64,000 bases of DNA from Mucilaginibacter mali (GTDB lineage Bacteria; Bacteroidota; Bacteroidia; Sphingobacteriales; Sphingobacteriaceae), in contig NZ_CP054139.1 of the NCBI RefSeq assembly GCF_013283875.1, positions 124,001-188,000 on the forward strand, read 5' to 3'. Below are positions 1,412 to 55,871 of the stretch, piece after piece (the stretch's first letter is position 1; each line of letters starts with the position of its first letter). The position numbers and the translations under genes were made by a program. The notes below the pieces were generated by a model that was not told the DNA's origin, searched no databases, and worked only from the letters and a program-made list of their open reading frames with translations.

Positions 1412-1415
1412 CTGC

Positions 1416-4260: not shown

Positions 4261-4282
4261 AAGCCGGCTGATGGGCCGGCTT
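4261..4282 (-). terminator. Rho-independent terminator after the RhlE-type helicase
   Basis: AAGCCGGC and GCCGGCTT form a perfect 8-bp stem with a 6-base loop. Read on the minus strand it is followed by TTTTTTG, so it terminates the helicase gene whose stop is at 4299. Confidence 0.85.
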
Positions 4283-4298
4283 GATATTTTAAAGTTGA

Positions 4299-36895: not shown

Positions 36896-37984
36896 TTATC
36901 CTGTTTGGATATAGCCCTCTTTAAGAAGCGTTTCTTTTATACCTTCGAACAAATAGGCCTCTTCATTATTAGGATATCTAACTAAAAAGTTATCAATGTC
37001 AATAATTGTTTTATCTACTGAGTGATGTTGAGCGAAATGAATATAAAGCCAAAACAATTTATTTCTTTCATCAAGTTGTAGGTTCTCATCCAAAGAAAAT
37101 TGATAAACAATATTATGAATATCATTTAATTGGGTTAGTACCAAAAAAACTAAATAACTAAACGAACCTTTTGCGATACCCTCTTTCAAAAAATATAGTG
37201 ATACCTTTACTGCTTTGGGAGTAAATAATTCGTTGATAAATTCTGCAATTTTAAGTCGAATGCTTGATGCTTGATAATGCAAATAATCCTCCGAATTCCA
37301 AAAAACGGTTGAATTGTCCAAATAATTACTTAGCATCCCAAGTATATTAATTTGAATGCCTTTTTCATTAATGTTAGCAAAATTTAAAATGATGTAATAC
37401 CAAGATGCTTGTCTTTCCCTATGGTTTGCAAATAATGACTTTAACCCTGTATAACAGATGTCTGGCTGAGAAAGATTTGTAAATGCCTCCAAGCTTCTAC
37501 CAAAGTTCTCGTAGTTTTTGTAATCCCGGCTGTAATTGGTAAAATGTTCTTTGAATAACGGAAAGGTTTTCAGCGAAAGTTCGTTGTTTCTATCCACCCG
37601 TATATTATGTGATTTGTTTAGCAAAATTTGAGGGTTGATCTTAAGATATTCAGTTATGTTAACCCAGTAAGCTCTTTCCAATTCTACATCGAAAACTATT
37701 CCGGCGATTGGCAAAAGATGATTATTCCAATATTGCAAATGATCAAGGTCTGCTGGTATTTTATATCCTGTTTTATCTTTATAGCTTTTACCGCTCTTGA
37801 TTTGAGCAAATACACAAAAGCTGGTCGCAATATTATTATCTATAAATTCGATGAAGCAGTCATTGCCTTGGTCGTTATTCAAGCTTATTGCTTGATATAT
37901 GCAGTTGTGGCTTTTAACAATTGACTTAATAAATTCCACCCCAAGATTTTCAATGGGTTTGTTGTGACTTCTTTTTGTAGTCAT
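36896..37984 (-). CDS. DUF4365 (PD-(D/E)xK nuclease-like) protein, last gene of the defence operon
   Basis: The N-terminal part (residues about 10-150) matches DUF4365: a conserved Asp42 in GNDCFIEFID and Gln61-Ile-Lys63 in FAQIKSGKSY give the D...QxK form of the restriction-endonuclease-like active site. The remaining 210 residues are helical, with TPR-like spacing. It begins 19 bases after the PP2C stop on the same strand. Proteins with this domain are often fused or linked to phage-defence genes. It is a candidate effector of the operon. The nuclease activity is inferred from motif and family. Confidence 0.75.
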   Translation of the reverse strand: MTTKRSHNKPIENLGVEFIKSIVKSHNCIYQAISLNNDQGNDCFIEFIDNNIATSFCVFAQIKSGKSYKDKTGYKIPADLDHLQYWNNHLLPIAGIVFDVELERAYWVNITEYLKINPQILLNKSHNIRVDRNNELSLKTFPLFKEHFTNYSRDYKNYENFGRSLEAFTNLSQPDICYTGLKSLFANHRERQASWYYIILNFANINEKGIQINILGMLSNYLDNSTVFWNSEDYLHYQASSIRLKIAEFINELFTPKAVKVSLYFLKEGIAKGSFSYLVFLVLTQLNDIHNIVYQFSLDENLQLDERNKLFWLYIHFAQHHSVDKTIIDIDNFLVRYPNNEEAYLFEGIKETLLKEGYIQTG

Positions 37985-38003
37985 TTCCGTTTAATAATCA
38001 ATA

Positions 38004-38756
38004 TTAATTAAATGGAGAACCTAATTCGATCAAAAATCCGGAAGAATTGTCGTTGCCGAATGCAGATTTTAGGGTAACTCCACTGACTATGTTTAATAAC
38101 CAGTTTTTATCCGATTGAATGATCCCAAGTATTTCAGTTTCGGTATACAATTCATAAAATCCATCTGATGCTACCAATACCTTATCGCCGTAGGCAAGTT
38201 CCATCTGCTTGATCTCCGGGTAATAAATTTTATCCTTCCCACAAATGCTCCTGGTCACTACATGGCGTACGTGTGAATTTATATATTCTTCTTTGGACTT
38301 GTTGTTAATTCTTAATTCATTTTCAAGCGTATGAGATACCGAGCTAAAATGTATTTTATTGTTTCTTAAAATCATTAACTTGACGTCACCCACCCAAAAA
38401 ACAATAGTGTTTGAGCCATGAATTAATATGCCGCCTAAGGTTGCACCAGATTCAGCCCCTTTTTCAAAAACCAGCTTTTTTATCCGCTCATTTGCGGTTG
38501 AAACCGCTGATGAGATCAATTCGTCATCTTTGGCATTGTTTAACTGATAACTTAAATGTTCATTTAGTGTTCGTATAATGAGTTCTGCTGCTAAATCCCC
38601 ATAGCTGTAGCCCCCCATTCCATCGGCTACCAGAAATAACGAAGTTTCATCATCTATTTGGAGTGCTGAAATCTTGTCTTGATTACTCTTCCTTTTGCCA
38701 ATTTCAGAAAATTGTTGGTATTCAATTTTATATTGCTTTAAGTGTTGCTCCCCCAT
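38004..38756 (-). CDS. PP2C-family serine/threonine protein phosphatase
   Basis: The 250-residue protein has the PP2C metal-binding motifs in order: RKSNQDK near residue 23, VADGMGGYSYGD near 40, SGATLGG, a GDVKL segment and LVASDGFYE. It removes phosphate from Ser/Thr in the cytoplasm. It overlaps the stop of the large ATPase gene by 29 bases, so translation is strongly coupled. Three genes upstream is a two-kinase-domain protein, so a kinase/phosphatase switch within one defence operon is likely. The canonical MADS, as I recall it, does not include a phosphatase. Confidence 0.92.
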   Translation of the reverse strand: MGEQHLKQYKIEYQQFSEIGKRKSNQDKISALQIDDETSLFLVADGMGGYSYGDLAAELIIRTLNEHLSYQLNNAKDDELISSAVSTANERIKKLVFEKGAESGATLGGILIHGSNTIVFWVGDVKLMILRNNKIHFSSVSHTLENELRINNKSKEEYINSHVRHVVTRSICGKDKIYYPEIKQMELAYGDKVLVASDGFYELYTETEILGIIQSDKNWLLNIVSGVTLKSAFGNDNSSGFLIELGSPFN

Positions 38757-41700
38757 GTTTTGTAACTCTTGGACGCGTGTTGATTTTCACCGGCCTTGTT
38801 GTAATTCCTTTGTCTGTTGATTTGGTAGCCCATAGAAAACCTTCCCCCGGCGCTAATGATGATAAATCAGCTGGAGTTAATGCTTGTAAGGGGGTAATGG
38901 ATTTTTGAATATGTTTAAGCCATTGTGGACTATTAAACTTATGTAATAGTACAATACTGCTAAGTTCTATAATTTCATTAGGTAAACTTGGGGGGTCTTG
39001 ACTGGCGATCAGAATACTTACGCCTTTGTGCCTCATTTCCCTGATTGCTGTCACAATGGAATTTGTAAGGTCCTTATTGTTCATATACTTATGAGCCTCA
39101 TCAAAAACGATGAACTTGTTGAATGATTTGCCATTCACTTCCTTAACACCGGAGAAAATATTAAGCATAATTACGAACAATCCTAAGGCCTCGTCCTTTT
39201 CAATGAATTCATCCCTGAGATCGACCACGATCAATCGGCCGGGTTTAAGTTTATCATTTAAAAAATCTTTATCGTTGATATATTGCGACGCAAAATTCAG
39301 TCGTTGTAAGGCTAAACTACGTTGTGCGTTCGAAAGTAAAAGTGAATCGTTTACGCTTTGGATCAAGCCATTAATACTTAGGTTATTTCGATTTTCACGC
39401 ATTAAAGCCTTTAATTGACGAACATAAGTGGCATCATTGCCGACTGCCCCTAACAGAAACATCCAGTCCTGAACACTTAATTCATTCGAATTGAAGCTTA
39501 TTGGATAAACTTGAATTGAGGGGAAATCGCGCTTTCTGTCCTCAAGTTTATCAGAAGGCGTTAAAAGTATGACATCCTCTAATTTGTCCGGCATTGCACC
39601 ATAGTGCTGTTTTAGCAGAGCTATTTCACGTTCCTGGTCATTGATATATATCATGGAGGTAAACTCCGGTTCATAATCCATGCTTTCGCTATAGTGAAAT
39701 ATTACGCCGGACAACGGAGCCGGTAATAAATTCACTTGATTATACTGCTTGAGCATCATTTCGGTGATGGTGCCAATCGTGTAGCTTTTACCACCTCCTT
39801 GTACACCAAAGAGACTGATAGTATTTGTTTCGCTAGCATCAATAGCAATTTTCTTGCCCTGTATGGTCTTTCCAAGTATGCCAAATTGGAGACTTTCGGA
39901 ATTCTTGCCAATCATGATATCATAATCAGGGGCCATAGTTTTTGAAGCAGGTAAATAGGGTTCTATCGGTTCAGCAGCAAGGGGCAGGGAATCTCCTGGC
40001 TCTTCATTTTCACGGTTCTCTTTTTTCAATCTTTCTGTCTCTACACCCTTGGACTCCATCTCCGGCTCGTTTGTTTCTTGCGGTTTAACAATGACCGGGG
40101 CCGGCTCTTTTGACATTTTAAATTGGCGCACGAAGGGAGAAAGTTCTTTTTTACCACCAAATGCAGCTACTATTTCTGCATCCTCGTCGACTTTTTCTAA
40201 TCTGTAAGTATTCAAGTCTGAATTAGGATCTATGATGTCTGAAATCAATTTGCCCCCGAAAGTAAAAAACGTCAGGTTAGAATCAACAGTCTCTTTTTTG
40301 TGCCGAATTGCAGAAGCAAAATCGAAAATGATACCAAGCTCCTTAAATTCGATTGAAAAGCCATTGTCCAATGATTGTAAGAAGAATATATAGTGTTGAT
40401 AAGTGTTATCCGCGAGGAAACCATAGCGTTTAGCTCTGTTTATATAAAATTCGAGTAAAGATTTTAACTCTTTATTTTTTATTTGGCGGTCAAGTCTGTC
40501 GAAGGATAAATTATTATTAGGATCAAAGTGTGTTTTTAAAGCAAGAATTGTGTTATCAATCTGGCTTTTCATTTTAATTTTTAGACTAGCCCTATCCACA
40601 TCTGCTAGTGCCCTCCGGCATTTAATCTCGATAACCGTAACTTCAATTATTTTTTTATCGGGGTTTATTCTAACCAAAATGTTATCTGCACGACTTTTAT
40701 CATCTGTTGGCAGTGCTTTAAATAGATCCTGATGTAAGTCAATCGGAATCAAGAATGCATCTTCCAGGATCTTTTTCTTTTCTAAAACGCGCTTGGTAAA
40801 AGCAGCGCCGATCACTTCAAAAGCCTTATTCTTTCCAGAGTTCAATTGCATCACTAGCGAACTGCTTATCGCGCGTAAATCTTCCAATAACATTGTGATA
40901 GTTAAATCATTAGCTAGCGGGTCAAATGGGATATCAAATTCTTGGAAGTGAGGACCCAATAGTCCGATTATTTCAGAATTAGGCCTTGTTGTAAGAAAAC
41001 TTGAAATGCCCGAAAGTTCTTCGTTTGGAATGTAGTCAAGTAAAAAAGGAATATTGCCATCTTTACCTGGTAAATCAAAGACTTCGGGCCCTAAGTGCTT
41101 ATCAAAAGTTATGACCCAGTCGCTATTATCATGTACATTATTGATCAAAACCTTGTCTACATCACCAAGCACCAGGGATATTGATGGTAAAGAGTCGGAT
41201 GTTTTTCCCGCTAAAGAACTGGAAACGAATTTTTGCAAGTAACAAAATATACTGATGGAATACTTAGCGATTTCTCCTATTGGCATTACCTGCGCCCCAT
41301 AGTTTATAAACTTATCCCATCGAATTTCAGAACCGGTTTCCTTTACTTCAGTTATTGATTCTGAAATCAAACCGTTTAAAAAGAAGGAATTTCGTTCTGA
41401 GACAGGCTTGAACAATTCTATTCTAGTAGAGAATGGACTGATTAGAAAACTGAGATGGGCGCTGTAGCTTTCTGGCGATTCGAGGTATTTTTTAATAGAA
41501 TTTACTGAAAATCTTAATTTTGGAAATAATCGATTTTCAGAAGGCCTTGAAAAAGCTTCTGCCTGCTCACTTACAGTATATTCCGGGTTTAGTAAATTTT
41601 TGAAACCCTCGCCCTGTTCGATTATCGTTTCCTTTCCTTTAAACAGCCTGATTTCATATTTGAGATTCTGAAACGAAGGATTCTTTTCTAATTCAACCAA

Positions 41701-44109
41701 AGCATTAGCAAAAGTGACCGAATCCCCGGCATTGAAAAGATTGATTACAATTTTATCAGCATAGGGATGCTGTCTGATATAGTTCAATAAATATTTTTCG
41801 ATAAGTCCCTGGCTGATTTCGTCATCTAACCTGTTGGGTTTATCAATATTGAGTAGCCTGGATACATAGCCCTTCACCAAACGATTGACAGAAGTTAAGG
41901 TCTCAGTTTCTGAAAGTGAAGAGGGCGTTAGGTAGATGCCCCAGCCATAAGTAATTTCACCCGCATATTGGAAACTTTTAAGTGTGTCGAGCTCAACAAT
42001 TACGGGCAAATTATTATCAGGCATCAGATCACCAAGAAAGAAATTCTCAAGATTTTTAAACCAATCTTTTTTATAACCTTCATATCCAATGGTCTTTTCC
42101 TCCCAATCTCCGAAAAGATCAAAAAGATTTAAAAACCAGGCAAGCCTCAACGGATGTAATGGTGAAAGCAATTGAAAATTCAAAGATTTACCGTCTGGCA
42201 ATCTGCTACTAATCTGAATTAAATCGAGATTCTGCAATTCAGTCAATAATTCTTGAAGTTCATTCTTTTCCTGAATATTTTCTGCCGGAATTTCGTTAAA
42301 ACGTTTGTTTAAATGATTAAGGAACGCGTCGAAACTACACAGATAATTCTTCACAAGATCGACAAGTTCATGACTCGATGTTGTTTCGAAAACACCGGTC
42401 CGATCAGGCGCAGAAGCTAAAATCGCTTCAAATAACTCTGTCCGGCAGTTTTTTAAATTATCTGAGGCTAAATCGTTGATCGAAGCGGCTATATAGGTCG
42501 CCGAATTTAAATCAATTTTAGCCGAATTTGAGTCTAAATGAGCTTTAGCGTAACCGAGGGTGTCGCCATGGTTTAGTAGCAAGTGTTGCAGCGATACTAG
42601 TTTACTACTCAAATTTATCTGATAATTATCCTTAGAGCTGTACTGAATATGAAAAGTTAAATTTGTCTTTTTAAACGTATCGTCCAGCCAATTTGCCGAG
42701 TTGTTTTCAGGCACAGGTATGGATGACGGAATGGCGTTCTTTAATTGGCTGATCCGCCACTTAAAGTAGGCTTGAGTTACGTTACTCAATTTATCCTTTC
42801 GTATACTATCATCAATTTCTATTTCGCCGATACTAAAATAGAAATCAATAGAGTCGCTGGATAGTTTATAGTTTAATGATGCCTTTTCTGGCGCATCTTC
42901 GTTGTTTTTTACTGACAGCCAATATTCTTGTATGTCAGCACTTTTGAAGTCATCATCAACATTGAGTAAGATGCCGTTTTCATCTTCAGCCTGGACCTTA
43001 ATAAAGTAATTTCCTTCTTCGACAATGGAAGGATTTAATTCAATTGTCAGATCACGATACGGTTTATCAGTGCCGGTATTCTTGCAAATTCTTAAATCAT
43101 GAACAAATTCACCCGCATGACCATTCACGGAATACAAGGATAATCGAAAGCTTTTTAATTCTGATACATCCTTAGGTTTCGGTAACGTATGGATACGAAC
43201 CTTGACCTTAACATTTTTATTAGGATTAGCAGTGATAAAAGTATCTCCGTCTTTATATTTCAATTCGGGGCAGCTAATATTTGTTACCCATAGTTTAAAA
43301 TCAATCTGATTTAAGTCGGGGATCAGCCAGTTTTTAAAATTTAGTGCAGGTGCATTTTCGGCGATACTATTAACTAATTCCTTACTGTTTTTAATCGATT
43401 CTGAGCCTTTTAAAAACAGAACTATCTCACTTTGAATAGATTTTTTTTCAATTGGCAGTTGTTTTATTCGTTCGTAGATCGATTTTCCATAATCCGAAAG
43501 AATTGCGATGCTATTAAGATTGAAATTAAGACGGGCTCTGATTTTGTTAAAATCATTTAGGAGAGCTTCATCAGGGATCATGCCTAAAAAATGTAAATGA
43601 TTCCCAATATTTTCCCTGGTGTAGGAGGATTGCTCCAGCGCCAGGAGGTACTGAATTGCCTGATTGGTTTTTAAGTTGTAGGAGTTTGTGTAATTAAATA
43701 TTTCCTGCATATAGGCCTTATATTCCGCAGGGATCTGAGTAACTAATTTGCTCAATAATAAATTTTCAATACCAGATAGGTTAATATCCTTAAATGTGGC
43801 ATTTCCATAAGAATCTTCGGCTGCAGTGCGGCTATTTGAGGGAATAAGAATCAGTAATGCTGAGGTTTCCTCATTTCGCATTTCGATCAGCTTTGTCGCT
43901 GAAATATAATCCGGCCCTACCTCCTTATCCGAAAGAATATAAGTCTCTAAATCAGGAAATTGAATCCTGACCTTGGACAACAAAACATTTAATTGATCTT
44001 TCGCCAGTCCGGTAATTTTCATACAGTGCCCTGGCAAGGCGCTTTCAAATTCACTGGCGTATTTATCGATTATTATATCGATAATATGTTGAAAGTAAGT
44101 GTTGATCAT
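38728..44109 (-). CDS. MAD8-like ATPase: large N-terminus, nuclease-like motif, HerA/FtsK-type C-terminal ATPase
   Basis: The 1,793-residue protein has an unrecognised region over about residues 1-1090. An EVTVIEIKCRR segment then gives Glu1161-Ile-Lys1163 after an Asp-containing strand, as in PD-(D/E)xK nucleases. A Pro/Glu-rich linker (about 1330-1386) leads to a HerA/FtsK-like ATPase with Walker A GVQGGGKS (about 1435-1442) and Walker B IVFDEAHKYM (Asp1670). HerA-like ATPases translocate DNA. It lies 15 bases downstream of the MAD7-like gene and overlaps the phosphatase gene by 29. The size, ATPase class and gene order fit MAD8 of the methylation-associated defence system. The assignment is from memory of that system. 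Confidence 0.8.
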   Translation of the reverse strand: MINTYFQHIIDIIIDKYASEFESALPGHCMKITGLAKDQLNVLLSKVRIQFPDLETYILSDKEVGPDYISATKLIEMRNEETSALLILIPSNSRTAAEDSYGNATFKDINLSGIENLLLSKLVTQIPAEYKAYMQEIFNYTNSYNLKTNQAIQYLLALEQSSYTRENIGNHLHFLGMIPDEALLNDFNKIRARLNFNLNSIAILSDYGKSIYERIKQLPIEKKSIQSEIVLFLKGSESIKNSKELVNSIAENAPALNFKNWLIPDLNQIDFKLWVTNISCPELKYKDGDTFITANPNKNVKVKVRIHTLPKPKDVSELKSFRLSLYSVNGHAGEFVHDLRICKNTGTDKPYRDLTIELNPSIVEEGNYFIKVQAEDENGILLNVDDDFKSADIQEYWLSVKNNEDAPEKASLNYKLSSDSIDFYFSIGEIEIDDSIRKDKLSNVTQAYFKWRISQLKNAIPSSIPVPENNSANWLDDTFKKTNLTFHIQYSSKDNYQINLSSKLVSLQHLLLNHGDTLGYAKAHLDSNSAKIDLNSATYIAASINDLASDNLKNCRTELFEAILASAPDRTGVFETTSSHELVDLVKNYLCSFDAFLNHLNKRFNEIPAENIQEKNELQELLTELQNLDLIQISSRLPDGKSLNFQLLSPLHPLRLAWFLNLFDLFGDWEEKTIGYEGYKKDWFKNLENFFLGDLMPDNNLPVIVELDTLKSFQYAGEITYGWGIYLTPSSLSETETLTSVNRLVKGYVSRLLNIDKPNRLDDEISQGLIEKYLLNYIRQHPYADKIVINLFNAGDSVTFANALVELEKNPSFQNLKYEIRLFKGKETIIEQGEGFKNLLNPEYTVSEQAEAFSRPSENRLFPKLRFSVNSIKKYLESPESYSAHLSFLISPFSTRIELFKPVSERNSFFLNGLISESITEVKETGSEIRWDKFINYGAQVMPIGEIAKYSISIFCYLQKFVSSSLAGKTSDSLPSISLVLGDVDKVLINNVHDNSDWVITFDKHLGPEVFDLPGKDGNIPFLLDYIPNEELSGISSFLTTRPNSEIIGLLGPHFQEFDIPFDPLANDLTITMLLEDLRAISSSLVMQLNSGKNKAFEVIGAAFTKRVLEKKKILEDAFLIPIDLHQDLFKALPTDDKSRADNILVRINPDKKIIEVTVIEIKCRRALADVDRASLKIKMKSQIDNTILALKTHFDPNNNLSFDRLDRQIKNKELKSLLEFYINRAKRYGFLADNTYQHYIFFLQSLDNGFSIEFKELGIIFDFASAIRHKKETVDSNLTFFTFGGKLISDIIDPNSDLNTYRLEKVDEDAEIVAAFGGKKELSPFVRQFKMSKEPAPVIVKPQETNEPEMESKGVETERLKKENRENEEPGDSLPLAAEPIEPYLPASKTMAPDYDIMIGKNSESLQFGILGKTIQGKKIAIDASETNTISLFGVQGGGKSYTIGTITEMMLKQYNQVNLLPAPLSGVIFHYSESMDYEPEFTSMIYINDQEREIALLKQHYGAMPDKLEDVILLTPSDKLEDRKRDFPSIQVYPISFNSNELSVQDWMFLLGAVGNDATYVRQLKALMRENRNNLSINGLIQSVNDSLLLSNAQRSLALQRLNFASQYINDKDFLNDKLKPGRLIVVDLRDEFIEKDEALGLFVIMLNIFSGVKEVNGKSFNKFIVFDEAHKYMNNKDLTNSIVTAIREMRHKGVSILIASQDPPSLPNEIIELSSIVLLHKFNSPQWLKHIQKSITPLQALTPADLSSLAPGEGFLWATKSTDKGITTRPVKINTRPRVTKHGGATLKAI

Positions 44110-44124
44110 ATAAAATGATATTGG

Positions 44125-45678: not shown

Positions 45679-45682
45679 AGGT

Positions 45683-48600
45683 TTAGTTTAACGGTTGCAA
45701 CTCCAGTTTGTACTGATCATTTATTTTTATGCTAAAGAAAGATTCATTATCGCTAGTCACGATAACCTCTTTGTATTCCTGATTCTCCAGTAAATTCTTG
45801 AAAATTTGAAGTTCAACAAACCTGCCTCTAATGTCGTTTAGCGATGGGCTATATCCCTGACTGATAAAATATAACATTTCGAAAAGGTCAAGCGAGATCG
45901 TCAACGATACTTTTTTATCTGTTAAACTTCTAAACGTTAAGCTGTCAGGCTCATACTCTAAATAATTTGTCAGGTGTGCAGATGAATTTATAATCAATTC
46001 GAAACTGTCCAACTCGAATAGTCTGTAAGACTTACTAATGGGGTCTTTCACCTGAGCAGAGGACAACACCAGGTTTTTAGAGTAGATTCCCTCGTTATTG
46101 CAGCCTTCATTTAATGAGATCGCCTTTGCAATACTTTGCTTCGTGTCGTTCATCATGACTTCCTTATTTGCACTTATGCCGATCAATAGATCATGAAAAT
46201 CAAAAACCGAATGATAAGGTAAACGCGCACGATAGTTTATCTTGCCTTCAAAATACTGATGGCGCACTAAAATCTTTTGGGTAGTCAAAATCCTTCGCTG
46301 AATTTCTTCGGTTTGGTCATGAAGGGGTATTTTTATTTTGAATTCATTAAATTGGCTCAATAACTGCTCCTTACGTTCTTCAAAATATAAAAACTGTTCC
46401 GGTAGATGTGTTCCGAAATACAAATCCCGATCTAACGAGGGAACTGCAGTCTCCGCAACATCAGTCTCCCGAACTAACTTAATCAGGCGGTCATATTGTG
46501 CTGAATCATTAGCTGAATTATCGCTAATATTGAAGTAGTAATGTTTCCACCAATTCAAATAATCCTCGTCGCCGACTTCGATTTGTTGTTTAATTTCAGA
46601 ACATTGATAATCCCGAGTTAGTGTAAATGCGATGAATGACCGCAAGTCTCGCATGGTAATATGTAACTCCCGTTTTAGGCTCACCGTGCGTAACAGCCAT
46701 TCCATCCGGTCAATGATTTCATTACCTACAGCAGAGTCGTTCAAGGATGCGACGTTATATTTTATGAAACAATTTTCAGCTACCGGGCAGGTTTGACAGT
46801 TTGCCCACAATGATTTCTGGGTTAACAATTTTACCTGCTGCTTGAACAAGCTTTCCTGATTATGTCCGTTGGCTACAACTGAACGTAAATTCAAATTAAT
46901 TATAAGCAAGCCATCCGGTAATTGTGATTTGCCCTCAGTGTAAAAATAATTCTCGATGGTATCGGCTAACTGCCTGTATGGGGCAACAGTATGAAGAAAC
47001 TCAACCAAGCGGCCTTCATTGATTGCAATAATACGACCCTGAGTGGCAAGGCTATAATCGGTTAAATTTTCGAAGGGTTTAAAAAAGGCAGAAAGCACAT
47101 CGTCATTAGCTTTTTGATCTTCGTCCTGGGACCCATCATAATTACTCTGAAAAAGAGTCCCGTTAATTTCGAATGTTACGCCATTACCATTTTTAAGCTT
47201 TTTTACGTTGTTAGCTTTACTTTCAATTTTTCTGATAAATGCTGTTTTACCATCACCCGCATTACCAGTTATGATAACTAACCTGTATCGCCCGTCTAAA
47301 ATATCCGGGATGAGTTGCTTGTCAAGCTTGGTTTCGGTGTAAGTTAAACTATCATATAGGGAATTTTTATCTCCTGCTCTTGTTCCAACATTTCCATGAC
47401 GAGATTGACTATAAAGAGAATTAACATAATTTACGATGTTCTGATCCGGACCGCCGCCGGCTGCCAAAGAAATCGTCGAGGTCTCCTTTTCTATCTGGAG
47501 TAAATTATTCTCGCCGATGGTCAGCAATTCATCAAGCATCTCTTTAGCCGATTGAAACCTAGCTTCCCTTTTGGTAGCGATTGATTTTGAGAGAAACGCA
47601 GAAAACGCATTGGAAAGTTTGGCATTGTGAATTTGCGGCGATTCGGCTGGTTTTCCAACCTGGGGCATTTTCATCGAACCTGACCAGGGATAAACTTTAC
47701 AGGCAAGCTCATAAAGCGTGATACCTAAGGCAAAGGTATCTGCCGATCCATCCCAATTTACGCGGTTGTTTCCTATTACCAAGTCGGGCGCCAGGTAGGG
47801 GTTCGTCCCCACATAGTCTAGGTTATTTTCAACAACTGAAGCGACATTAAAGTCAATAAGGACAAACCGCTTTCCCTTATCCCAGACAATATTTTGGGGT
47901 TTAATGTCTCTATGGTATATCGGCGGACTAATGGCTTGCATATAGGTCAAAGCGCTTAGAATATCCTTGGCAACCTGAAATATTTTATAGACAGGTAAAT
48001 TCTTTGCGCCCTTGGCATACTCCTTAAGGTTTTCACCTTCCAGAAGTTCCATCAATGTATAAAATTGTCCGGAAGGTAGAATACCGTTCCATCTAAATTT
48101 TACAATATTGTCGTGGTTAAGGTTCGTCAGCGCGTTATATTCATCGGTAACGGAGGAGCCGTGTACACTTTCGTTAAAAACCTTCATGGCAAAATCGCTC
48201 TTGCTTTGCAGGTTATGTTTCACCCGGTAAACCTGTGAATAGCCTCCTTGGCCTAGATGCTGATATATCGTAAAATCGGATACCTTACTTCCGATCTCAA
48301 AGTCACAATTATCCGGCTTGGGCAGAACGCTGCCAGAGGATGCCTCTTCTACCTTTGTTGCCTTTTTGATAAATGCTTCCATTTCTTCCAGATTATCCCA
48401 CCTGTCATCGGGATCAGTTAAGATGGTATGATCACAAAAATCATCTAACCAAGATGGCACACCTGGCTTCACATGGGTTGCTTTTCTGTTAGGGGGGAGT
48501 TTTCCCCCAAGTCGATTAAGCTCAAATGGGCTTTCTATAGGGACTTTATCGACAAATAATTCATAGGTAAGAATGGCCAACGAATAGATATCCGATGCGC

Positions 48601-49759
48601 GCGATGCATCCCGCAAACTTAGTTCTAAAGCATGATAAGGAGTGGCGTTTGATTCATTGATGGTCGGCATTACAGTATACCCCTCATCCTGATGATCTGC
48701 AAAATAGGATTTCCCAAAATTGCCTAAACAGGCATATCCGCCAGCGAGAAAAACGTTTTCAGGATTAATGTCCCTATGAAAAACATTTTGCTCATGGGCC
48801 GCCTTAAGTGCGCTGATCAAATTGAAAACGATATTTATCTTTTCTTCTATCGTAAATGTTTTTCTTTTTAGTTCAGCACGTAAGGAGTTTTCATCCAAAT
48901 AGTCTGTGATCTCATAAAAGATATGATTTTCCTGATCCAACTTAAATTGTACATTTAAGATAAAGGGATTTGTCTTTATCTTATTCAGCGCATTATATTG
49001 GTTTTGAATTAGGTGATTCCGCTTTTCGCGTTGCGTTAGGGGTAAATTAGGCACGTCTAAAGCATATTCCCTTATTCGCTTTCTAATAGCTGAGGTTACC
49101 CCTTTGGGTTTAACTAAATATTCTGTGTAGTTTGGTTCCTGATCAAGGATATCAATAATTTGATAGCCTTCAACTTCCGTCTTTTTATCTGCAGTCTTCA
49201 GACTTGCGGTACCGCAGATTTCAGCCGCTATGTCTTGAAAAATGCCATTGAGCTCGTTTTTTTCTCGGCCAATAAGTTCTGGTTGGGTTAGGTTATCAAT
49301 GAATTGTTGATCAAGAATGTAGGTGGCTTTGACATGCGCACCCCATAGCCCTTTTTTGGTTTGGTATGGGTGTGATAAGCTTACAATAGATTGGATCCAG
49401 GCTTTGCTCCAAGAAGCGTTTTTCTCTTTTAGCTTACTAGCTAATACCGAAGTTTTGAAGCGTAATGTTTTATGAGGATTACGAGTCTCCCGGTCATTCA
49501 AGTACCAATAATTATCGTCTCCCTCTAATCGGCCGCTAAAATCTTTGTTTTCAATATTGAATATGGCGTGTGGCGCAACTATAATGCAGTCATATTCCAA
49601 ATACTGAACCTGGTGATTCTTGGGGTTGAGGTAGGCAAGTTCAATATTTGATAAAATCAGATAGTCATCAGAAAGGTTGACCTCCAGGTATTTCAACAAG
49701 CGTTCTTCGCCCGAATTAACAGGACCCTGATGATTACCACAATGCATTAATTTTGCCAT
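45683..49759 (-). CDS. MAD6/PglW-like kinase: NERD domain, two kinase domains and a P-loop NTPase
   Basis: The 1,358-residue protein has an N-terminal NERD nuclease-like domain (residues about 15-115, Asp57 and Glu70-Asn-Lys72) and a first kinase-like domain (about 215-440). This has HRD (328-330), but Asn347-Phe-Gly in place of DFG and no clear Gly-rich loop, so it may be inactive. A second kinase domain (about 490-750) has GQGGYS (503-508), Lys526, HRD (616-618) and DFN (636-638), and should be active. A P-loop NTPase follows (GNAGDGKT, 832-839), with a Cys cluster at 988, 991 and 997. PglW of Pgl/BREX and MAD6 share NERD-plus-kinase features. It overlaps the HsdS-like gene by 13 bases. The phosphatase downstream may oppose it. 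Confidence 0.85.
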   Translation of the reverse strand: MAKLMHCGNHQGPVNSGEERLLKYLEVNLSDDYLILSNIELAYLNPKNHQVQYLEYDCIIVAPHAIFNIENKDFSGRLEGDDNYWYLNDRETRNPHKTLRFKTSVLASKLKEKNASWSKAWIQSIVSLSHPYQTKKGLWGAHVKATYILDQQFIDNLTQPELIGREKNELNGIFQDIAAEICGTASLKTADKKTEVEGYQIIDILDQEPNYTEYLVKPKGVTSAIRKRIREYALDVPNLPLTQREKRNHLIQNQYNALNKIKTNPFILNVQFKLDQENHIFYEITDYLDENSLRAELKRKTFTIEEKINIVFNLISALKAAHEQNVFHRDINPENVFLAGGYACLGNFGKSYFADHQDEGYTVMPTINESNATPYHALELSLRDASRASDIYSLAILTYELFVDKVPIESPFELNRLGGKLPPNRKATHVKPGVPSWLDDFCDHTILTDPDDRWDNLEEMEAFIKKATKVEEASSGSVLPKPDNCDFEIGSKVSDFTIYQHLGQGGYSQVYRVKHNLQSKSDFAMKVFNESVHGSSVTDEYNALTNLNHDNIVKFRWNGILPSGQFYTLMELLEGENLKEYAKGAKNLPVYKIFQVAKDILSALTYMQAISPPIYHRDIKPQNIVWDKGKRFVLIDFNVASVVENNLDYVGTNPYLAPDLVIGNNRVNWDGSADTFALGITLYELACKVYPWSGSMKMPQVGKPAESPQIHNAKLSNAFSAFLSKSIATKREARFQSAKEMLDELLTIGENNLLQIEKETSTISLAAGGGPDQNIVNYVNSLYSQSRHGNVGTRAGDKNSLYDSLTYTETKLDKQLIPDILDGRYRLVIITGNAGDGKTAFIRKIESKANNVKKLKNGNGVTFEINGTLFQSNYDGSQDEDQKANDDVLSAFFKPFENLTDYSLATQGRIIAINEGRLVEFLHTVAPYRQLADTIENYFYTEGKSQLPDGLLIINLNLRSVVANGHNQESLFKQQVKLLTQKSLWANCQTCPVAENCFIKYNVASLNDSAVGNEIIDRMEWLLRTVSLKRELHITMRDLRSFIAFTLTRDYQCSEIKQQIEVGDEDYLNWWKHYYFNISDNSANDSAQYDRLIKLVRETDVAETAVPSLDRDLYFGTHLPEQFLYFEERKEQLLSQFNEFKIKIPLHDQTEEIQRRILTTQKILVRHQYFEGKINYRARLPYHSVFDFHDLLIGISANKEVMMNDTKQSIAKAISLNEGCNNEGIYSKNLVLSSAQVKDPISKSYRLFELDSFELIINSSAHLTNYLEYEPDSLTFRSLTDKKVSLTISLDLFEMLYFISQGYSPSLNDIRGRFVELQIFKNLLENQEYKEVIVTSDNESFFSIKINDQYKLELQPLN

Positions 49760-51156
49760 GATTCGATTGCGTTTTCAACTATATTGATAGCCTCATATTC
49801 TTTTATATTGCCAAGGCTTAATTTTTCATAGGCTGTATTTACCAAATCTCCAATTTCTTTTTCAATAGAGACAGATAGTCTTGGAATAGGCATCTCTTCT
49901 AACAGAGGTAAAATATAATACAATAAGTTAGTGCCATAAACTATCGATCTGAAAATTCTGAAGAATAGATCCGATTTAAGAACTATAAACAAGTATCCAG
50001 GGTCAATTTTTCTCCTATCCGGCATTATTCTTAATAAATGTTCGGATAAAACTTTACCTTCTAAGTATCCATGTACAAAAAGAGGTCGGCTAAAAATTTC
50101 ATTTTCTCCAAGCGTTCCCACTGCGGGGACAATTATCATGTCTTTTTTAGCTGTTTGATTATCCAGGTTATCAATGTATTTTTTAGAAATGATTTTCCCT
50201 TTCGGCTTGAGATTATGTAAATCGCCTTGATTTAATAATTCAACTGCGTTAATTGAATTTTCTGAAACTTCAACCCTCTTATATCTCCCACCTTTTACTG
50301 GAGCATATTGTAACAATGAAATGAGGCTTTCATGGGAGCCATTTTGAAAGACTTCTTTTATTAGTTTTAATCTTTCGCTATATGTTCTTGATCTTATTGA
50401 TAATGGTGTTATTGAAGACTTTTTCACGATAAAACTACATGAGGTGGCTGATTCCGAAGAATTGGTTATTTTATCGAACAACTCATCATTGATGTTTAAA
50501 TTGGAAATAAATAATTGATCAGCCTTTCTCAATAATTTATTAGCCTCGGTACGTAGCGTAGATGCTTCAATTATCAAATTATGTATTTTATGTTGCTTAT
50601 CATCGCAAAAGACAGGAATTGGCATATCTTTAATCATTTCTTCTGTAATATAAGGTTGCACGCCGCCTGCAGCTAATTTCCAAAGCAATGTATTTCCGTA
50701 TTTTGATACCAGAAAGGAGTAAATGTATCCCGATTTATTTTTGTCTTTAGGCACTATACGAATCATGTTATCTGAACCCATAGCGTCCAATTCTTCGAAT
50801 TCAGATGTAATATAAGCAGTTTGCCCAATGGCTCCGACCCGACCTGTAACAATCATTCCTTCTTTCAGAAAAGATAATTCATCAAATCCATATTTACGAG
50901 AGTTATATTTGCACCCATTAATCGGGTTTTGTTTTACAACGTCAGAATTACTTAAATAAGGATACCCAAATTTTCTATCGGTATACATTCTCTTGCTTCT
51001 TCCCGCAGTAAATATTTTTGATGTTAAATTCTGGAGCTCTTCATGAGGCATCTCATGTATTTTTTTTAAATACAGAGTCCCCTCCGAAAGATGAAAACCA
51101 CTATCAAACCGCATGGCATTAATTATATCCGTTACTCGGACTGTCGAAGTTTTCAT
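49747..51156 (-). CDS. HsdS/MAD5-like DNA specificity subunit
   Basis: The 469-residue protein looks like a type I restriction-modification S subunit: two target-recognition regions (residues about 15-185 and 275-440) separated and followed by helical spacers. It has family-like pieces such as KFGYPYLSNSDVV and IKDMPIPVF in the first half, and IVPAVGTLGENEIF and LLEEMPIPRLS in the second. It should direct the methyltransferase to a two-part DNA site. It overlaps the methyltransferase gene by four bases (ATGA) and the kinase gene by 13. No HsdR helicase/nuclease is encoded nearby, so it serves a modification-guided system, not a standard type I system. Confidence 0.85.
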   Translation of the reverse strand: MKTSTVRVTDIINAMRFDSGFHLSEGTLYLKKIHEMPHEELQNLTSKIFTAGRSKRMYTDRKFGYPYLSNSDVVKQNPINGCKYNSRKYGFDELSFLKEGMIVTGRVGAIGQTAYITSEFEELDAMGSDNMIRIVPKDKNKSGYIYSFLVSKYGNTLLWKLAAGGVQPYITEEMIKDMPIPVFCDDKQHKIHNLIIEASTLRTEANKLLRKADQLFISNLNINDELFDKITNSSESATSCSFIVKKSSITPLSIRSRTYSERLKLIKEVFQNGSHESLISLLQYAPVKGGRYKRVEVSENSINAVELLNQGDLHNLKPKGKIISKKYIDNLDNQTAKKDMIIVPAVGTLGENEIFSRPLFVHGYLEGKVLSEHLLRIMPDRRKIDPGYLFIVLKSDLFFRIFRSIVYGTNLLYYILPLLEEMPIPRLSVSIEKEIGDLVNTAYEKLSLGNIKEYEAINIVENAIESWQN

Positions 51157-53246
51157 ATTGCGGTTTCTTTACAGAATTCAAAATATGCTTTACTAATTTT
51201 AGGCAAATCATCGTCCAAGCGCTTGATTTTTTCATTTCTTTTTTTCAAAACTTTACCTTCCAATTTATTGTAAGTCAGATATGTTTTTATCTCATCAAAC
51301 AACAGTTCCGCGCCATCTTCATCCCTAAGAAAAATTTGATTGCCACGCCTGTCTTTCCCTAATTTTTCGGCAATTGCCATAAATATATCATAATCAGAGT
51401 GATGCAAAAGGGAATGAGCGCGTTCATCTTCAGTTTTCTTTTGCAAAAACAAGAGCGATGCTTGTACGCCTACCTGAGGTAAAAATGCTTCCACGGCTAA
51501 ATCTATGGACGCTAACAATTTAAATTTGTCTAATATCCATGATCGAACATATTCGGTGTTAGGATTACCTAAAATGCCATCAGGCAATACAATAGCCATT
51601 TTGCCCCCTGGTTTCAAAAACTGATAACATTGATCAATAAACAGTATTTCAGGCGGTTGACTACTACTCAAATTTAATTTTTGCCATTGTCCATTAATGT
51701 CTTTTTTCCAACTAAACCCTAAATCGAATTGCCTTAAGATCTCGGGATCATTTATTGGTATTTTTGCGCCGAAAGGCGGGTTTGTAAAAATAAGATCGAA
51801 TTTTCCAAGCGCGTTATAATCTTGTTCAAACGGGAAATCGGCATCGATTCCGGTTCTAATACTTTTACGGACGGCCTCATTGATTTTATATAGTTCGGCT
51901 TCATTGTCGCCTTTAGGGTAAGCCAATGAGTTAGCGTGAAAGATATTGGCGTGACCATCACCCGCCATCACCATGTTCATCCGCGCTGCCTTTTTTAAGT
52001 CAGGATCAAAGTCGAATCCGAAAAGGTATTGCTCTGCATAATCTTTAACTTTGTTGTTTACTTCTATAGAGTTGAACTTTTCCTCCAACCATGGCCCCTC
52101 TAAATCAGGAAATATTTGCTTAGCGAACTTTCTACGCACATGATCCAAAACCATTACCAAAAAGCCACCGGAGCCACATGCAGGATCCAATACTCTTTGA
52201 TGGGCCGTTGGATCCATCATTTCTACCATGCATTTAACTATATTTCTTGGCGTAAAGAACTGGCCGGCTTCCTGCTTTAGTGTATTGGAAACTATGGTTT
52301 CATAAGCTACACCTTTTACATCAACTGTTGCATCTAAAAACGAGTATTTAGCTAATTCAGCCGCAATAAAGGCCAGCCCTTTGTCAGTTAAACTTATTTG
52401 TTCGTTGCCATCAAAAACTTCAGAGAAAAGTGGGTCTTTCCTAAGCTTTGCAAAAATGTCTTTTATTCGTTTTGCAACCTGTTCTCGGCCTTTAATCGTA
52501 TTCTGTTCTTTTACGCCTACCCAAAATTCACGTCTGTAGCTTTCACCGCTTTCCGCGCAAGTGAAGCGTCTTTTTTCATCGTAGATTTTGCAAAAAATAA
52601 GGTTTAGTAGCTCCCAAAATGCAGTTTTTTTCATGCCTTCATTACCATAGATATAATCATGGCAGCGTTTAAATACGCGTATGAGTGAATCATTAGCAGG
52701 GTTACGAGCAATGATTTTATCAGATCGATCAAGATCGGCGATAGTTTGCCCTACGCCAGGAAAATCTGAAAGATCAGAAAATTGAAGATTATCAAATGCG
52801 TCAACTTCTTTCTGTATAAAATTGTAGGTAGCACCATTGGTCCAAAGTCCGAATTCGCAACTACCAACACAGCTTAATGCGTTTTGCAACGATATTTCTA
52901 CCCCCTTTTTTTTGTCATTTTCCTTTGTCTTTTCGTCATGGACGATGCATAATCGAGTAATATGATCTTGTTTGTGAGGTTGATCCGGTTCAAAAATGAC
53001 TAGGTCTATTTTCTGCTTCTTTATTTTCCCTGAGTCTGGGTCGTAGCCAGATATAACAAAATCCCGCGCCATATCTGGCAAATCGAACCCGTATTCTTCG
53101 TTTAACATTCTGGCAACCGACTGGAATATAATTTCTCTTCCACTGGTCGTTTTAATTTCACCAGTAAGAATACAAACAAGTTGACTGTCCTCTAAAACAA
53201 TCTCATCGTTTGTAGGGTTATTCTGAATTAAATTTTCTTCGCTCAT
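51153..53246 (-). CDS. HsdM/MAD2-like N6-adenine DNA methyltransferase with HsdR-N-like N-terminal domain
   Basis: The 697-residue protein has GQFFTPR (328-334), the SAM-binding motif DPACGSGGF (354-362) and catalytic NPPF (489-492), as in type I M subunits. The N-terminal 150 residues look like the HsdR N-terminal nuclease fold: Asp81 in KIDLVIF, then DEK at 104-106 in IVHDEKTKEN. This D...(D/E)xK pattern may make it a nuclease or only a scaffold. It methylates adenine to mark self DNA. It overlaps the S subunit and the AbiEii-like gene by four bases each. It is longer than typical HsdM (about 500 residues) because of the N-terminal addition. Confidence 0.87.
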   Translation of the reverse strand: MSEENLIQNNPTNDEIVLEDSQLVCILTGEIKTTSGREIIFQSVARMLNEEYGFDLPDMARDFVISGYDPDSGKIKKQKIDLVIFEPDQPHKQDHITRLCIVHDEKTKENDKKKGVEISLQNALSCVGSCEFGLWTNGATYNFIQKEVDAFDNLQFSDLSDFPGVGQTIADLDRSDKIIARNPANDSLIRVFKRCHDYIYGNEGMKKTAFWELLNLIFCKIYDEKRRFTCAESGESYRREFWVGVKEQNTIKGREQVAKRIKDIFAKLRKDPLFSEVFDGNEQISLTDKGLAFIAAELAKYSFLDATVDVKGVAYETIVSNTLKQEAGQFFTPRNIVKCMVEMMDPTAHQRVLDPACGSGGFLVMVLDHVRRKFAKQIFPDLEGPWLEEKFNSIEVNNKVKDYAEQYLFGFDFDPDLKKAARMNMVMAGDGHANIFHANSLAYPKGDNEAELYKINEAVRKSIRTGIDADFPFEQDYNALGKFDLIFTNPPFGAKIPINDPEILRQFDLGFSWKKDINGQWQKLNLSSSQPPEILFIDQCYQFLKPGGKMAIVLPDGILGNPNTEYVRSWILDKFKLLASIDLAVEAFLPQVGVQASLLFLQKKTEDERAHSLLHHSDYDIFMAIAEKLGKDRRGNQIFLRDEDGAELLFDEIKTYLTYNKLEGKVLKKRNEKIKRLDDDLPKISKAYFEFCKETAI

Positions 53247-54304
53247 GCGGTTTTATTTTTAGATATTAAAGCCAATTGCCAATAGAAGAAGGCTTCTGGA
53301 TTTGATTTTTTTAGTTTATTTAATTTGCTGTAATTGGAAGCTGTAATTTCCAGGTCTCTAATCTGCTCGGCAGATCCAAATCGTTTAATATTATGATCAT
53401 CATTTAACATTAACGAACACAGGTAAGCGGTTTTAGCTCCAGCCAAAATGGCTTCATCGATTGTAAATCGATGAATTATAAAATTTACAATATTGCGAAT
53501 GCCTGATTGCAAATGCTCAAACTCTTTTGACCTGGGTTCACGTAAAGCAAGTAGAAAACAAGTTTCAATAGCATCCTCAAGCGGCCCCTGCCAATCTATT
53601 TGCAGTTTCCTCAGCGCGATCTCCTCTTTAACTATGGTCCTATAACTTGCTTTGATAGTGGCGAGGTCATTTGAAAGTTCAAACAAAAAGCCGATGTCAT
53701 ATAACTGCTTGATAATTTCTACAGGACGGTTTTTACTATATAAAATTCCTGTTGTATTTGGCGCAAATGCGGTTAGTTTATCACCCAAAATAGATTCAAA
53801 AGAGGGTAACTGAATTGTTATCGCTTCGCCCTCCTGATGTAACCAGGAATGCGCAATGAGGTGTTCTTGCAAGGTCGGGTATGGATTCTCGCCAAATAAA
53901 ATATCCAACAAAATAGGCTCTTCACCAAAATGCTGATTTACCCGGCTTTTATAATATATTTTATAATGTGATACCGGTGCGTCAGTTACATGTTTACGTT
54001 CGTTATCTGATTCCCAACTTGTAAATTGTCCCCGTGCTATAATTTTACCTATGACCATTTCAATCTCAGATTGACTGGCAGTAGTAATAATATCTATGTC
54101 TATCGAGAAGCGGCGCGGAGGGTCTGTTACTAATAATAATGATGTACCCCCCTTAAAAATTAAATTTAAACCATTGGCCTTTAATTGCTCCAATAAGTAT
54201 AGTGCATAGATGACCTTTTCTAACATCTTTGGGTCACCTTTTCGCCCCAGTTTTGTAGAAACGGATTTAATCCACTCCAATTCAAAATTCTGTCTACTTA
54301 TCAT
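53243..54304 (-). CDS. AbiEii-like nucleotidyltransferase (toxin-type)
   Basis: The 353-residue protein has the nucleotidyltransferase motif GGTS at 52-55 (IFKGGTSLLL) with SIDIDI, giving metal-binding Asp69 and Asp71. This is the pattern of AbiEii/AbiGii type IV toxins, MenT-like enzymes that modify tRNA or another target with nucleotides. It overlaps the methyltransferase gene by four bases, so it is part of the same operon, with the AbiEi-like gene 24 bases upstream. As I recall the MADS gene set, it is not included there. It may act as an abortive effector or stabilise the island. Confidence 0.86.
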   Translation of the reverse strand: MISRQNFELEWIKSVSTKLGRKGDPKMLEKVIYALYLLEQLKANGLNLIFKGGTSLLLVTDPPRRFSIDIDIITTASQSEIEMVIGKIIARGQFTSWESDNERKHVTDAPVSHYKIYYKSRVNQHFGEEPILLDILFGENPYPTLQEHLIAHSWLHQEGEAITIQLPSFESILGDKLTAFAPNTTGILYSKNRPVEIIKQLYDIGFLFELSNDLATIKASYRTIVKEEIALRKLQIDWQGPLEDAIETCFLLALREPRSKEFEHLQSGIRNIVNFIIHRFTIDEAILAGAKTAYLCSLMLNDDHNIKRFGSAEQIRDLEITASNYSKLNKLKKSNPEAFFYWQLALISKNKTA

Positions 54305-54310
54305 GTTAGT

Positions 54311-54347
54311 ATATTGGCATATTTAATGTCATTTTGCCAAAGTTTTG
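54311..54347. promoter_or_regulatory. Second operator-like inverted repeat, inside the AbiE junction
   Basis: TTGGCATATT (54314-54323) and TGCCAAAGTTTTG (54335-54347) repeat the half-sites found before the AbiEi-like gene. The starts of TTGGCA and TGCCAA are again exactly 21 bp apart. It overlaps the 3' end of the AbiEi-like gene and the gap before the AbiEii-like gene. Confidence 0.6.
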
Positions 54348-55078
54348 GTTATGTATTTTTCAAGTTCGTTCAGTTGATTTCGCCGCCTGGCATATCTTTT
54401 AAGCTTGTTAATATTGAGTTTGTATTTTTTTAATGAGGTACTAAAAATGTATTCCAACTCATTTTGTTGTGCAGCAAAAAGATCTTTTTCGATAAGGGCA
54501 TCAACAAGTAATTTTTCCAGGAGGGCTACGTGTATGCCTTTTTCGTCAACGTTAATAGGCGCTTCGGAAACCATGGGTTTAACAATAATGACTTCATTGA
54601 AATTGGCGATGTACCGCTCAAAAATCTCGTGGTCGGGGTTTAGATATACTTTTTTGCTGAAATCAGTTAGTGAATTAAAAACAGATTCCATAACATCCTT
54701 CTCTGTTTCGACAACCAAATAGTTTTTGAATAACTGATGGACCATTAAATCATTAAACCATTTACTTTCCCAAACGCAGAATTGAATAAAAGGAAATTCC
54801 TTATTGATTTTATTGTTAATTCTTTTAAGTGTGTTTGATATCTGAGGCTGGAAATCCCTCTTGTTGTCCAGCGAGTACACTCCCCTGGAAACATGCGATA
54901 TGGTTCCATTTGACTTTAGACTGTGAATATGCCACGAAATTGTATTTCCAGATGCTGCCGGGAAATACTGCCTTAAATACATTTCTAACTCATTTTTGGT
55001 AAAAATGCCTTTGTCAGCAAATTTCTTTAGAATATCTATTTCGATTGCGGCTTTCAATTTTAGGTTTCTGTTGGTCAT
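54329..55078 (-). CDS. AbiEi-like winged-helix regulator/antitoxin
   Basis: The 249-residue protein has an N-terminal winged helix-turn-helix (residues about 15-70, FTKNELEMYLRQYFP, SWHIHSLKSNGTISHVSRG) and a helical C-terminus, as in AbiEi antitoxins (and DUF6577-like neighbours of AbiEii). AbiEi-type antitoxins repress their own operon by binding inverted repeats and neutralise AbiEii without direct contact. It is the first gene of the nine-gene operon, so it probably controls all of it. A perfect 15-bp inverted repeat lies 28 bases before its start. MADS has a helix-turn-helix MAD1, and this gene could fill that role. Confidence 0.78.
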   Translation of the reverse strand: MTNRNLKLKAAIEIDILKKFADKGIFTKNELEMYLRQYFPAASGNTISWHIHSLKSNGTISHVSRGVYSLDNKRDFQPQISNTLKRINNKINKEFPFIQFCVWESKWFNDLMVHQLFKNYLVVETEKDVMESVFNSLTDFSKKVYLNPDHEIFERYIANFNEVIIVKPMVSEAPINVDEKGIHVALLEKLLVDALIEKDLFAAQQNELEYIFSTSLKKYKLNINKLKRYARRRNQLNELEKYITKTLAK

Positions 55079-55106: not shown

Positions 55107-55147
55107 CAAAACTTTGGCATATTATTGTTGATTATGCCAAAGTTTTG
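55107..55147 (-). promoter_or_regulatory. Perfect inverted repeat, probable operator of the defence operon
   Basis: CAAAACTTTGGCATA (55107-55121) and TATGCCAAAGTTTTG (55133-55147) match perfectly over 15 bp with an 11-base spacer, just upstream of the AbiEi-like gene. This is the arrangement AbiEi-type autoregulators bind. Confidence 0.75.
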
Positions 55148-55271: not shown

Positions 55272-55871
55272 TTAGAACAAGCTGAGTTGTACCATTCCAA
55301 TTAAAGCTTTATTAATATCACGTAGGGTTGCCAGTATGACCGGCTGTTTATCGTTAAGGGTATCTGTACTGCCGATCCTTGAAACCATTTTAGATTTTAA
55401 ATCGCTAAGGGCATCGGCAAATGCGTCCATACGGTTGTTGAATTGTTTGCCATAAACGGATAAGCCGTAACCGCCACCTGCGACACCATAGCTGTAAGAG
55501 ATGGCATAAGTCCAGATACCATTTAAGCCCTTGCCTAATTTGATGGTACTGTAATTACCATAGCGGCTGGTATCACCAAAGGTCAGTTCTTCCTGATCCA
55601 GAAATACTGGTCGTTGAAACCAGCCATATTTATCAAAGGCAATTTCGCTGAAGCCGAACTGCAATCCCATGCGATAGGCATGAACATTCATGGTGATGGT
55701 ACTGAATGAATCGCCGAAGTTGCGAAACCAATCTAATTGCTGTTGGTCTTTCGCTTGAATGGCAAAGATCATTTCCTGAAAGATTTCTCTTTCATAATGA
55801 ACCATGTGGTTATCCTTCATGTAGGCTTTGATTTGATTTTTTGATTGAAGATTTAATACCAGGCTTTCCAT
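55272..55871 (-). CDS. Hypothetical protein of the island
   Basis: I do not recognise this 199-residue protein. It has no signal peptide. It contains a Tyr/Gly-rich middle (GIWTYAISYSYGVAGGGYGLS) and amphipathic helices at both ends. It is on the same strand as the defence operon but separated by 193 bases with the operator, so it is a separate unit. Its GC-rich upstream region with a 16-bp inverted repeat looks like mobile-element sequence, so it may be an element-borne gene. Function unknown. Confidence 0.6.
   Translation of the reverse strand: MESLVLNLQSKNQIKAYMKDNHMVHYEREIFQEMIFAIQAKDQQQLDWFRNFGDSFSTITMNVHAYRMGLQFGFSEIAFDKYGWFQRPVFLDQEELTFGDTSRYGNYSTIKLGKGLNGIWTYAISYSYGVAGGGYGLSVYGKQFNNRMDAFADALSDLKSKMVSRIGSTDTLNDKQPVILATLRDINKALIGMVQLSLF

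Follow-up and report, generated by a model that had tools for sequence, protein, structure and literature searches.

A MADS-core operon from Mucilaginibacter mali with an AbiE-type front and predicted regulator-specific operators

MADS is reportedly a methylation-associated defense system described by Maestri et al. in 2024. Its restriction mechanism is listed as unknown in the consulted part of a 2026 review (PMC12904381). In the consulted sections of the respective papers, AbiEi of the Streptococcus AbiE type IV toxin-antitoxin system keeps transcription low (PMC3985639), BrxR represses its BREX island (PMC9122601), DndF has an asparagine in its Walker B motif and, in some variants, carries a NERD domain together with inactive and active kinase domains in front (Rakesh, Aravind, Krishnan, PMC10853773), and in KKP a PP2C phosphatase restrains toxic kinases, which a phage protein releases (PMC11341870). 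Here, we analysed a 64,000-nucleotide stretch of the Mucilaginibacter mali genome (assembly GCF_013283875.1, contig NZ_CP054139.1, positions 124,001 to 188,000; 'the window'). It encodes a nine-gene operon in which a MADS core follows an AbiE-type gene pair and precedes a PP2C gene.

The MADS core and its relatives

A sequence-only reading of the window had proposed nine minus-strand genes joined by short overlaps or by gaps of 24 bases or less. The open reading frames bear this out, since they run on that strand from position 55078 down to 36896 with intergenic distances, from abiEi to the DUF4365 gene, of +24, -4, -4, -13, +4, +15, -29 and +19 bases. The arrangement is far beyond chance, and the core genes keep their order in related loci. 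The proposed domains were recovered as well (DUF6577, which PADLOC assigns to AbiEi, AbiEii, N6_Mtase, Methylase_S, NERD, kinases, HerA-like, PP2C and DUF4365). Pfam scores were 76 bits for DUF4365 and 62 bits for PP2C, while the HerA-like C-terminus of the MAD8 gene reached 18.9 bits, below the Pfam cut-off of 22.

Five proteins exceeded the curated NCBIfam cut-offs for MADS components: the DNA adenine methyltransferase MAD2 (51153..53246; score 838 versus 720; NPPF motif at residue 489), the HsdS-like specificity subunit MAD5 (49747..51156; 462 versus 400; also Methylase_S), MAD6 (45683..49759; 722 versus 460), MAD7 (517 amino acids, 44125..45678; 620 versus 410) and MAD8 (1793 amino acids, 38728..44109; 230 versus 175, with a model that spans residues 27-220 only). 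PADLOC agreed on the MADS core (mad8, 143 bits). The kinase, the 517-residue protein and the ATPase match MAD6, MAD7 and MAD8, and of the proposed alternatives, MADS variant or sister system, the operon is a MADS variant. No BREX gene (PglZ/BrxZ, BrxC) was found for the nine genes among the PADLOC and NCBIfam matches listed, and MAD6 scored 226 against PglW (NCBIfam cut-off 990).

The order MAD2-MAD5-MAD6-MAD7-MAD8 is that of MADS, compared with related loci and with a Piscinibacter plasmid (L082), the sole canonical MADS locus used. In the latter, MAD1 to MAD8 are all above cut-off, MAD1 is a small helix-turn-helix (HTH) protein, MAD3 is an AAA ATPase, and MAD3 and MAD4 sit between MAD2 and MAD5. 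Among the ten proteins scanned, none matched the NCBIfam models of MAD1, MAD3 or MAD4, and phmmer searches with one canonical query each found no relative among window reading frames of at least 40 amino acids. Since these three are missing, the operon is a MADS-core variant and not the canonical eight-gene MADS. The suggestion that AbiE replaces MAD1, MAD3 and MAD4 therefore holds for the MAD1 position, but not for MAD3 and MAD4, whose site between MAD2 and MAD5 stays empty.

We then compared the operon with other genomes, scanning named genomes around MAD7 and using the best 80 of 95 stretches encoding a relative. By title and taxonomy, all belong to Bacteroidota except one Bacillus. The core was kept together in constant order wherever its genes were visible, with inserted genes in some loci and a cut or split gene in a few. 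An AbiE-type gene or pair preceded MAD2 in 53 of 69 loci (11 were omitted because MAD2 was lacking or upstream DNA nearly absent). These fronts comprised AbiEi_2 with AbiEii (28), AbiEi_2 alone (3), DUF6577 alone (20) and DUF6577 with the AbiEii type of the window (2; L032 and L033), so that 23 of the 53 lacked the toxin. The other 16 loci had different, often small genes at this place; the one scanned (L067) matched HTH models. At the opposite end, MAD8 was directly followed on the same strand by PP2C in 68 of 71 loci (9 were omitted, with MAD8 cut or less than 1.5 kb remaining), with 4-base overlaps in 29 and 1-base overlaps in 24. The three loci without it were L022 (Bacillus), L042 and L064; a Hymenobacter plasmid (L085) had none either. 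An AbiE front and PP2C are thus usual for the clade, and the claim of a non-standard composition does not apply to it. Likewise, PP2C and DUF4365 are additions relative to canonical L082, but within the clade PP2C is a regular component and DUF4365 an accessory one. Unusual is the complete DUF6577-AbiEii pair with two predicted operators: this front is the rarest AbiE type, found in the window and two loci. The DUF4365 gene at the tail is likewise rare.

Regulator-specific sites at the operon front

The first gene, abiEi (54329..55078, 249 amino acids), encodes a DUF6577 protein according to Pfam (PF20217) and an AbiEi according to PADLOC (280 bits). In its structure model (mean predicted local distance difference test score, pLDDT, of 91), an N-terminal winged helix, with winged-helix matches over residues 1-72, is followed by an AbiEi-like C-terminal domain, and the best PDB match is AbiEi 6Y8Q over residues 81-247. 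As modelled, DUF6577 folds like AbiEi. Directly downstream lies abiEii (53243..54304, 353 amino acids), a nucleotidyltransferase and predicted toxin identified by Pfam and PADLOC (423 bits) that possesses the GGTS and R-x-S-x-D-x-D motifs.

A repeat search revealed a predicted operator, O1 (55107..55147, minus strand), a perfect inverted repeat with 15-base arms and an 11-base spacer that stops 28 bases short of the abiEi start codon. Its length was matched in none of 300 base-composition shuffles. A second copy of the site, the predicted operator O2 (54314..54347, minus strand), contains an exact half-site, overlaps the last abiEi codons and lies 9 bases ahead of the abiEii start. The 6.04-Mb host genome has three exact half-sites, all of them in this operon and two of them in O1.

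Next, we compared the sites of different regulator types in the 44 of 56 fronts that had 40 or more upstream bases (the other 12 are all AbiEi_2 fronts). The half-site TTGCCAAAGTTTTG, allowing up to two mismatches, was present in 22 of 24 DUF6577 fronts and in none of 20 AbiEi_2 fronts. Conversely, the palindrome TGTTCATTGTCACTGAACA, allowing up to four mismatches, was found in all 20 AbiEi_2 fronts and in none of the 24 DUF6577 fronts. Among 554 other upstream regions, TTGCCAAAGTTTTG and TGTTCATTGTCACTGAACA had 14 and 2 matches, and among 1120 shuffles 2 and 0. In addition, exact copies of the first site occurred 15 times in 1.1 Mb of 53 loci, always at the front. The weightier evidence is the number of exact copies in the whole genome, together with the clean separation of two unrelated sites.

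Core trees carried the same regulator labels. For MAD7 and MAD8 combined, 70 rows with full-length genes were used (L033 was too short), and rows without an AbiE front were excluded from the counts. The regulator type changed 7 times on this tree and 8 times on the MAD7 tree of 79 rows; for the DUF6577 label, well-supported branches force 6 and 5 changes, respectively. The window paired with L032 on both trees, although both have long branches; for the combined tree the program warned that these branches meet. Given these changes and the regulator-specific sites, regulator and predicted operator appear to have switched together, and repeatedly, ahead of an unchanged restriction core. This predicted control cassette with its regulator-specific repeat sites is a new result. 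The literature searched, which did not include the original MADS paper, gave no account of AbiE operators or of PP2C in MADS.

With moderate confidence we read these patterns as a control circuit in which AbiEi would repress the whole MADS-core operon via both repeats, PP2C would reverse the action of the MAD6 kinase, and the predicted outcome would be phage defence. Several observations speak against this reading. One-mismatch half-sites number 20 in the host genome versus 15 for a reversed control pattern. Both motifs were derived from and counted in one set of loci, which makes the counts within that set non-independent; moreover, before the final count the region was extended beyond the selected start codons and the second site was shortened. 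A first, narrower count had given 21 of 24 for the first site and 14 of 19 for the second (up to five mismatches), with misses that were mostly due to start codons picked too far upstream. Conservation of the site columns (96%, versus 55% and 52% in the flanks) is high partly by construction, the motif having served as the anchor for the loci. The first site is absent in L040 and L064. A site before abiEii exists in the window and in L033, but not in L032; it is also absent in 21 DUF6577 loci without the toxin. O2 could furthermore point to a separate promoter for abiEii and the core. Finally, the Foldseek TM-scores of DUF6577 against 6Y8Q are low (0.37/0.46, whole-chain root-mean-square deviation 15), which we attribute to differently set domains.

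Alternatively, AbiE might be an independent toxin-antitoxin module that merely happened to land ahead of MADS, where it stabilises the island while its antitoxin acts on its own two genes only. Such pairs do stand alone: among 260 genomes of the order, 11 besides that of the window hold an AbiEii relative, each with DUF6577 immediately upstream, and none of the 11 is among the genomes identified as MAD7-bearing. Five of them (L170-L173, L180) share a related site that differs from the window half-site by two to three mismatches, TATAAGTTTGGCAA or CATAAGTTTGGCAA, some 47 bases ahead of abiEii. An AbiE-type gene at 53 of 69 MADS fronts, in 23 cases without the toxin, speaks against this view, as do the 4-base overlap between abiEii and MAD2 and a largest operon gap of 24 bases. 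We consider this alternative unlikely.

The putative restriction engine and the predicted kinase-phosphatase pair

MAD6 combines a NERD nuclease domain with a pseudokinase (HRD at 328, but NFG at 347 and no clear lysine), a second kinase (HRD at 616, DFN at 636) and a P-loop region resembling DndF (GNAGDGKT starting at 832, an asparagine at the candidate Walker B position and a cysteine cluster near 988). PADLOC matched SspF to MAD6 residues 827-1215 (8e-28) and SspG to the C-terminal part of MAD7, residues 442-505 (3.4e-8). In MAD8, a conserved PD-(D/E)xK-like motif (D1142, E1161, K1163) lies ahead of the P-loop (near 1435-1442) of a C-terminal HerA/FtsK-type ATPase. This order suggests that the nuclease of the system is likely inside MAD8. 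The sequence-only reading had noted that no HsdR is present; there is indeed no separate HsdR gene, but the nuclease need not be missing. The DndFGH link, partly foreshadowed in the consulted sections of PMC10853773, thus points to MAD8 as a possible home of the missing MADS nuclease.

How far does this likeness extend? In hhalign comparisons with a kinase-type relative (L093), probabilities were 99.7, 91.0 and 99.9% for the MAD6 C-terminus, MAD7 and MAD8. Against the DndF of a Dnd-like locus (L094), which is our own assignment and was matched by no NCBIfam Dnd model, the MAD6 C-terminus reached 94. For a complete DndFGH-like complex it is unfavourable that MAD7-DndG reached only 29.7 and MAD8-DndH 2.0 in the same comparison, and that the MAD7 structure model is poor (pLDDT 53). 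The link is firm for the MAD6 C-terminus only. Pfam, PADLOC and NCBIfam scans revealed none of the phosphorothioation genes DndABCDE among the nine genes. The relative L093 (1-14404) likewise links an FGH-type system with a toxin-antitoxin pair: its operon of NERD-kinase-DndF, G and H is followed by DarT-DarG, with an adenine methylase-like gene upstream.

The PP2C Ser/Thr phosphatase (38004..38756, 250 amino acids), assigned by Pfam and by the locus survey, has four conserved aspartates (Asp27, 45, 198 and 236 in the window) that were all retained in 75 of 75 sequences. As a regular ninth gene it is the likely counter-enzyme for the MAD6 kinase; its absence from canonical L082 counts against this role. 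The PADLOC candidate system PDC-M21, not named in the literature searched, also touches these families: the phosphatase is hit by its C model (65 bits), and the other AbiEii type gives a weak match to its B model (25 bits).

A KKP-like unit is a further alternative. Here, the MAD6 kinase would be a toxic effector and PP2C its antitoxin, a phage block of PP2C would arrest the cell, and restriction would be secondary. The tandem pseudokinase and kinase next to PP2C recall the KKP precedent, as far as the consulted sections of PMC11341870 describe it. However, the KKP kinases are two proteins, canonical L082 has the kinase but no PP2C, and 3 of 71 loci do without the phosphatase, which makes this scheme improbable.

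In the repression circuit that we prefer, MAD2 with MAD5 would methylate host DNA in a site-specific manner. MAD6, MAD7 and MAD8 would form a DndFGH-like complex that senses unmarked DNA, which the HerA motor would pump and the MAD8 nuclease would cut. By analogy with KKP, the MAD6 kinase would commit the complex, and PP2C would hold it back or reset it. By analogy with Streptococcus AbiEi and BrxR, AbiEi would bind the inverted repeats ahead of both abiE genes and keep operon transcription low. AbiEii, freed when AbiEi is lost or inactivated, might be a backstop for failed restriction or an addiction toxin that punishes loss of the operon. MenT toxins are relatives of AbiEii. According to the consulted sections of PMC11375011, these nucleotidyltransferase toxins are silenced by phosphorylation, so AbiEii could be a further target of the neighbouring kinase-phosphatase pair.

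Extending this to the whole group is tentative: we think it possible, though doubtful, that MADS of Bacteroidota are run by swappable repressor-operator cassettes derived from AbiE, with the antitoxin as master repressor, that removal of AbiEi by a phage frees restriction and toxin, and that PP2C and MAD6 set the threshold and may phosphoregulate AbiEii. It is very improbable that the operon has decayed or fallen silent, with none of the proposed regulation at work: its low-GC island of foreign make-up (GC fraction 0.35-0.41 versus 0.40-0.51 across the remaining window, in 2-kb windows) would suit such a fate, but all nine reading frames are open, the catalytic motifs are in place and the sites are perfect or exact. 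The predicted regulatory cassette makes it directly testable how large, dangerous immune systems are kept off; the value of the locus lies in this cassette and in the kinase-phosphatase pair.

Accessory genes and comparison with known systems

The last gene encodes a DUF4365 protein (Pfam; 36896..37984, 362 amino acids). Besides the window, DUF4365 accompanies MADS in two other genomes, Pedobacter ISL-64 and another genome of the window's genus, where it is divergent at the front and about 42% identical over its full length. Its nearest relatives, at 72% and 68% identity, are located away from MADS. In other loci the genes after PP2C vary; of nine that were scanned, four had no Pfam match. Judging from this distribution, DUF4365 is probably an accessory, mobile cargo or a hitch-hiker at the operon edge. 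Facing the end of the operon is a PLD-like (PF13091) nuclease-type gene (35928-36767, plus strand). Upstream of abiEi, at a distance of 193 bases and on the same strand, lies a gene for a 199-amino-acid protein (55272-55871, minus strand) that has no Pfam, PADLOC or NCBIfam match. Further on, a 22-base sequence starting TGTAAGCTTACA occurs in two tandem copies (56479-56522) ahead of the solute-binding protein gene.

Several other loci stand out. The Bacillus sp. locus L022, the sole one of the 80 outside Bacteroidota by title, is nested in the Bacteroidota tree and has a recombinase gene upstream. Most of the Bacteroidales loci L067-L080 have a variable slot between MAD5 and MAD6, filled with SLFN/AlbA_2-type proteins (one scanned) or with a CpXC zinc protein and a WG-repeat protein; in L076 this slot holds a YhcG-type PD-(D/E)xK nuclease. 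L029 encodes a 1040-amino-acid protein with weak UvrD-type helicase matches (1407-4529) between MAD2 and MAD5, the canonical position of MAD3-MAD4. A relative without the kinase part (L091, 2509-14431) has a DndF-like protein, MAD7, MAD2, MAD5 and MAD8 in a different order. Full-length MAD5 copies (L002-L081) scored from 108 to 432 bits against that of the window, neighbours being more alike; such wide variation is expected if target-recognition parts are exchanged.

Compared with canonical MADS, our operon shares five genes in the same order (MAD2, MAD5, MAD6, MAD7, MAD8). It lacks MAD1, MAD3 and MAD4; an AbiE pair takes the place of MAD1, PP2C follows MAD8, and a DUF4365 gene closes the operon. 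With DndFGH/SspFGH it shares a MAD6 C-terminus that matches SspF and has an asparagine at the candidate Walker B position like DndF, as well as the DndH order of nuclease motif and HerA/FtsK part in MAD8 (both as described in the consulted sections of PMC10853773); MAD7 and MAD8 match one Dnd-like locus only weakly, and an adenine methylase and HsdS stand in place of the phosphorothioation genes. With the AbiE type IV toxin-antitoxin system, in so far as the consulted sections of PMC3985639 portray it, the pair shares gene order, AbiEi fold, nucleotidyltransferase motifs and an inverted repeat near the antitoxin start, but it differs by the DUF6577-type antitoxin, the second site before the toxin gene and the 4-base overlap with a restriction operon. 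KKP (PMC11341870, same restriction) likewise places two kinase domains beside PP2C in an anti-phage unit, a role that is predicted for the window; KKP has two kinase proteins, whereas here a single protein contains pseudokinase and kinase fused to NERD and DndF-like parts. Lastly, BrxR represses BREX islands through inverted repeats, as is predicted for AbiEi and its operon here, but BrxR belongs to a WYL-domain family (PMC9122601, consulted sections), whereas the window regulator is of the AbiEi type.

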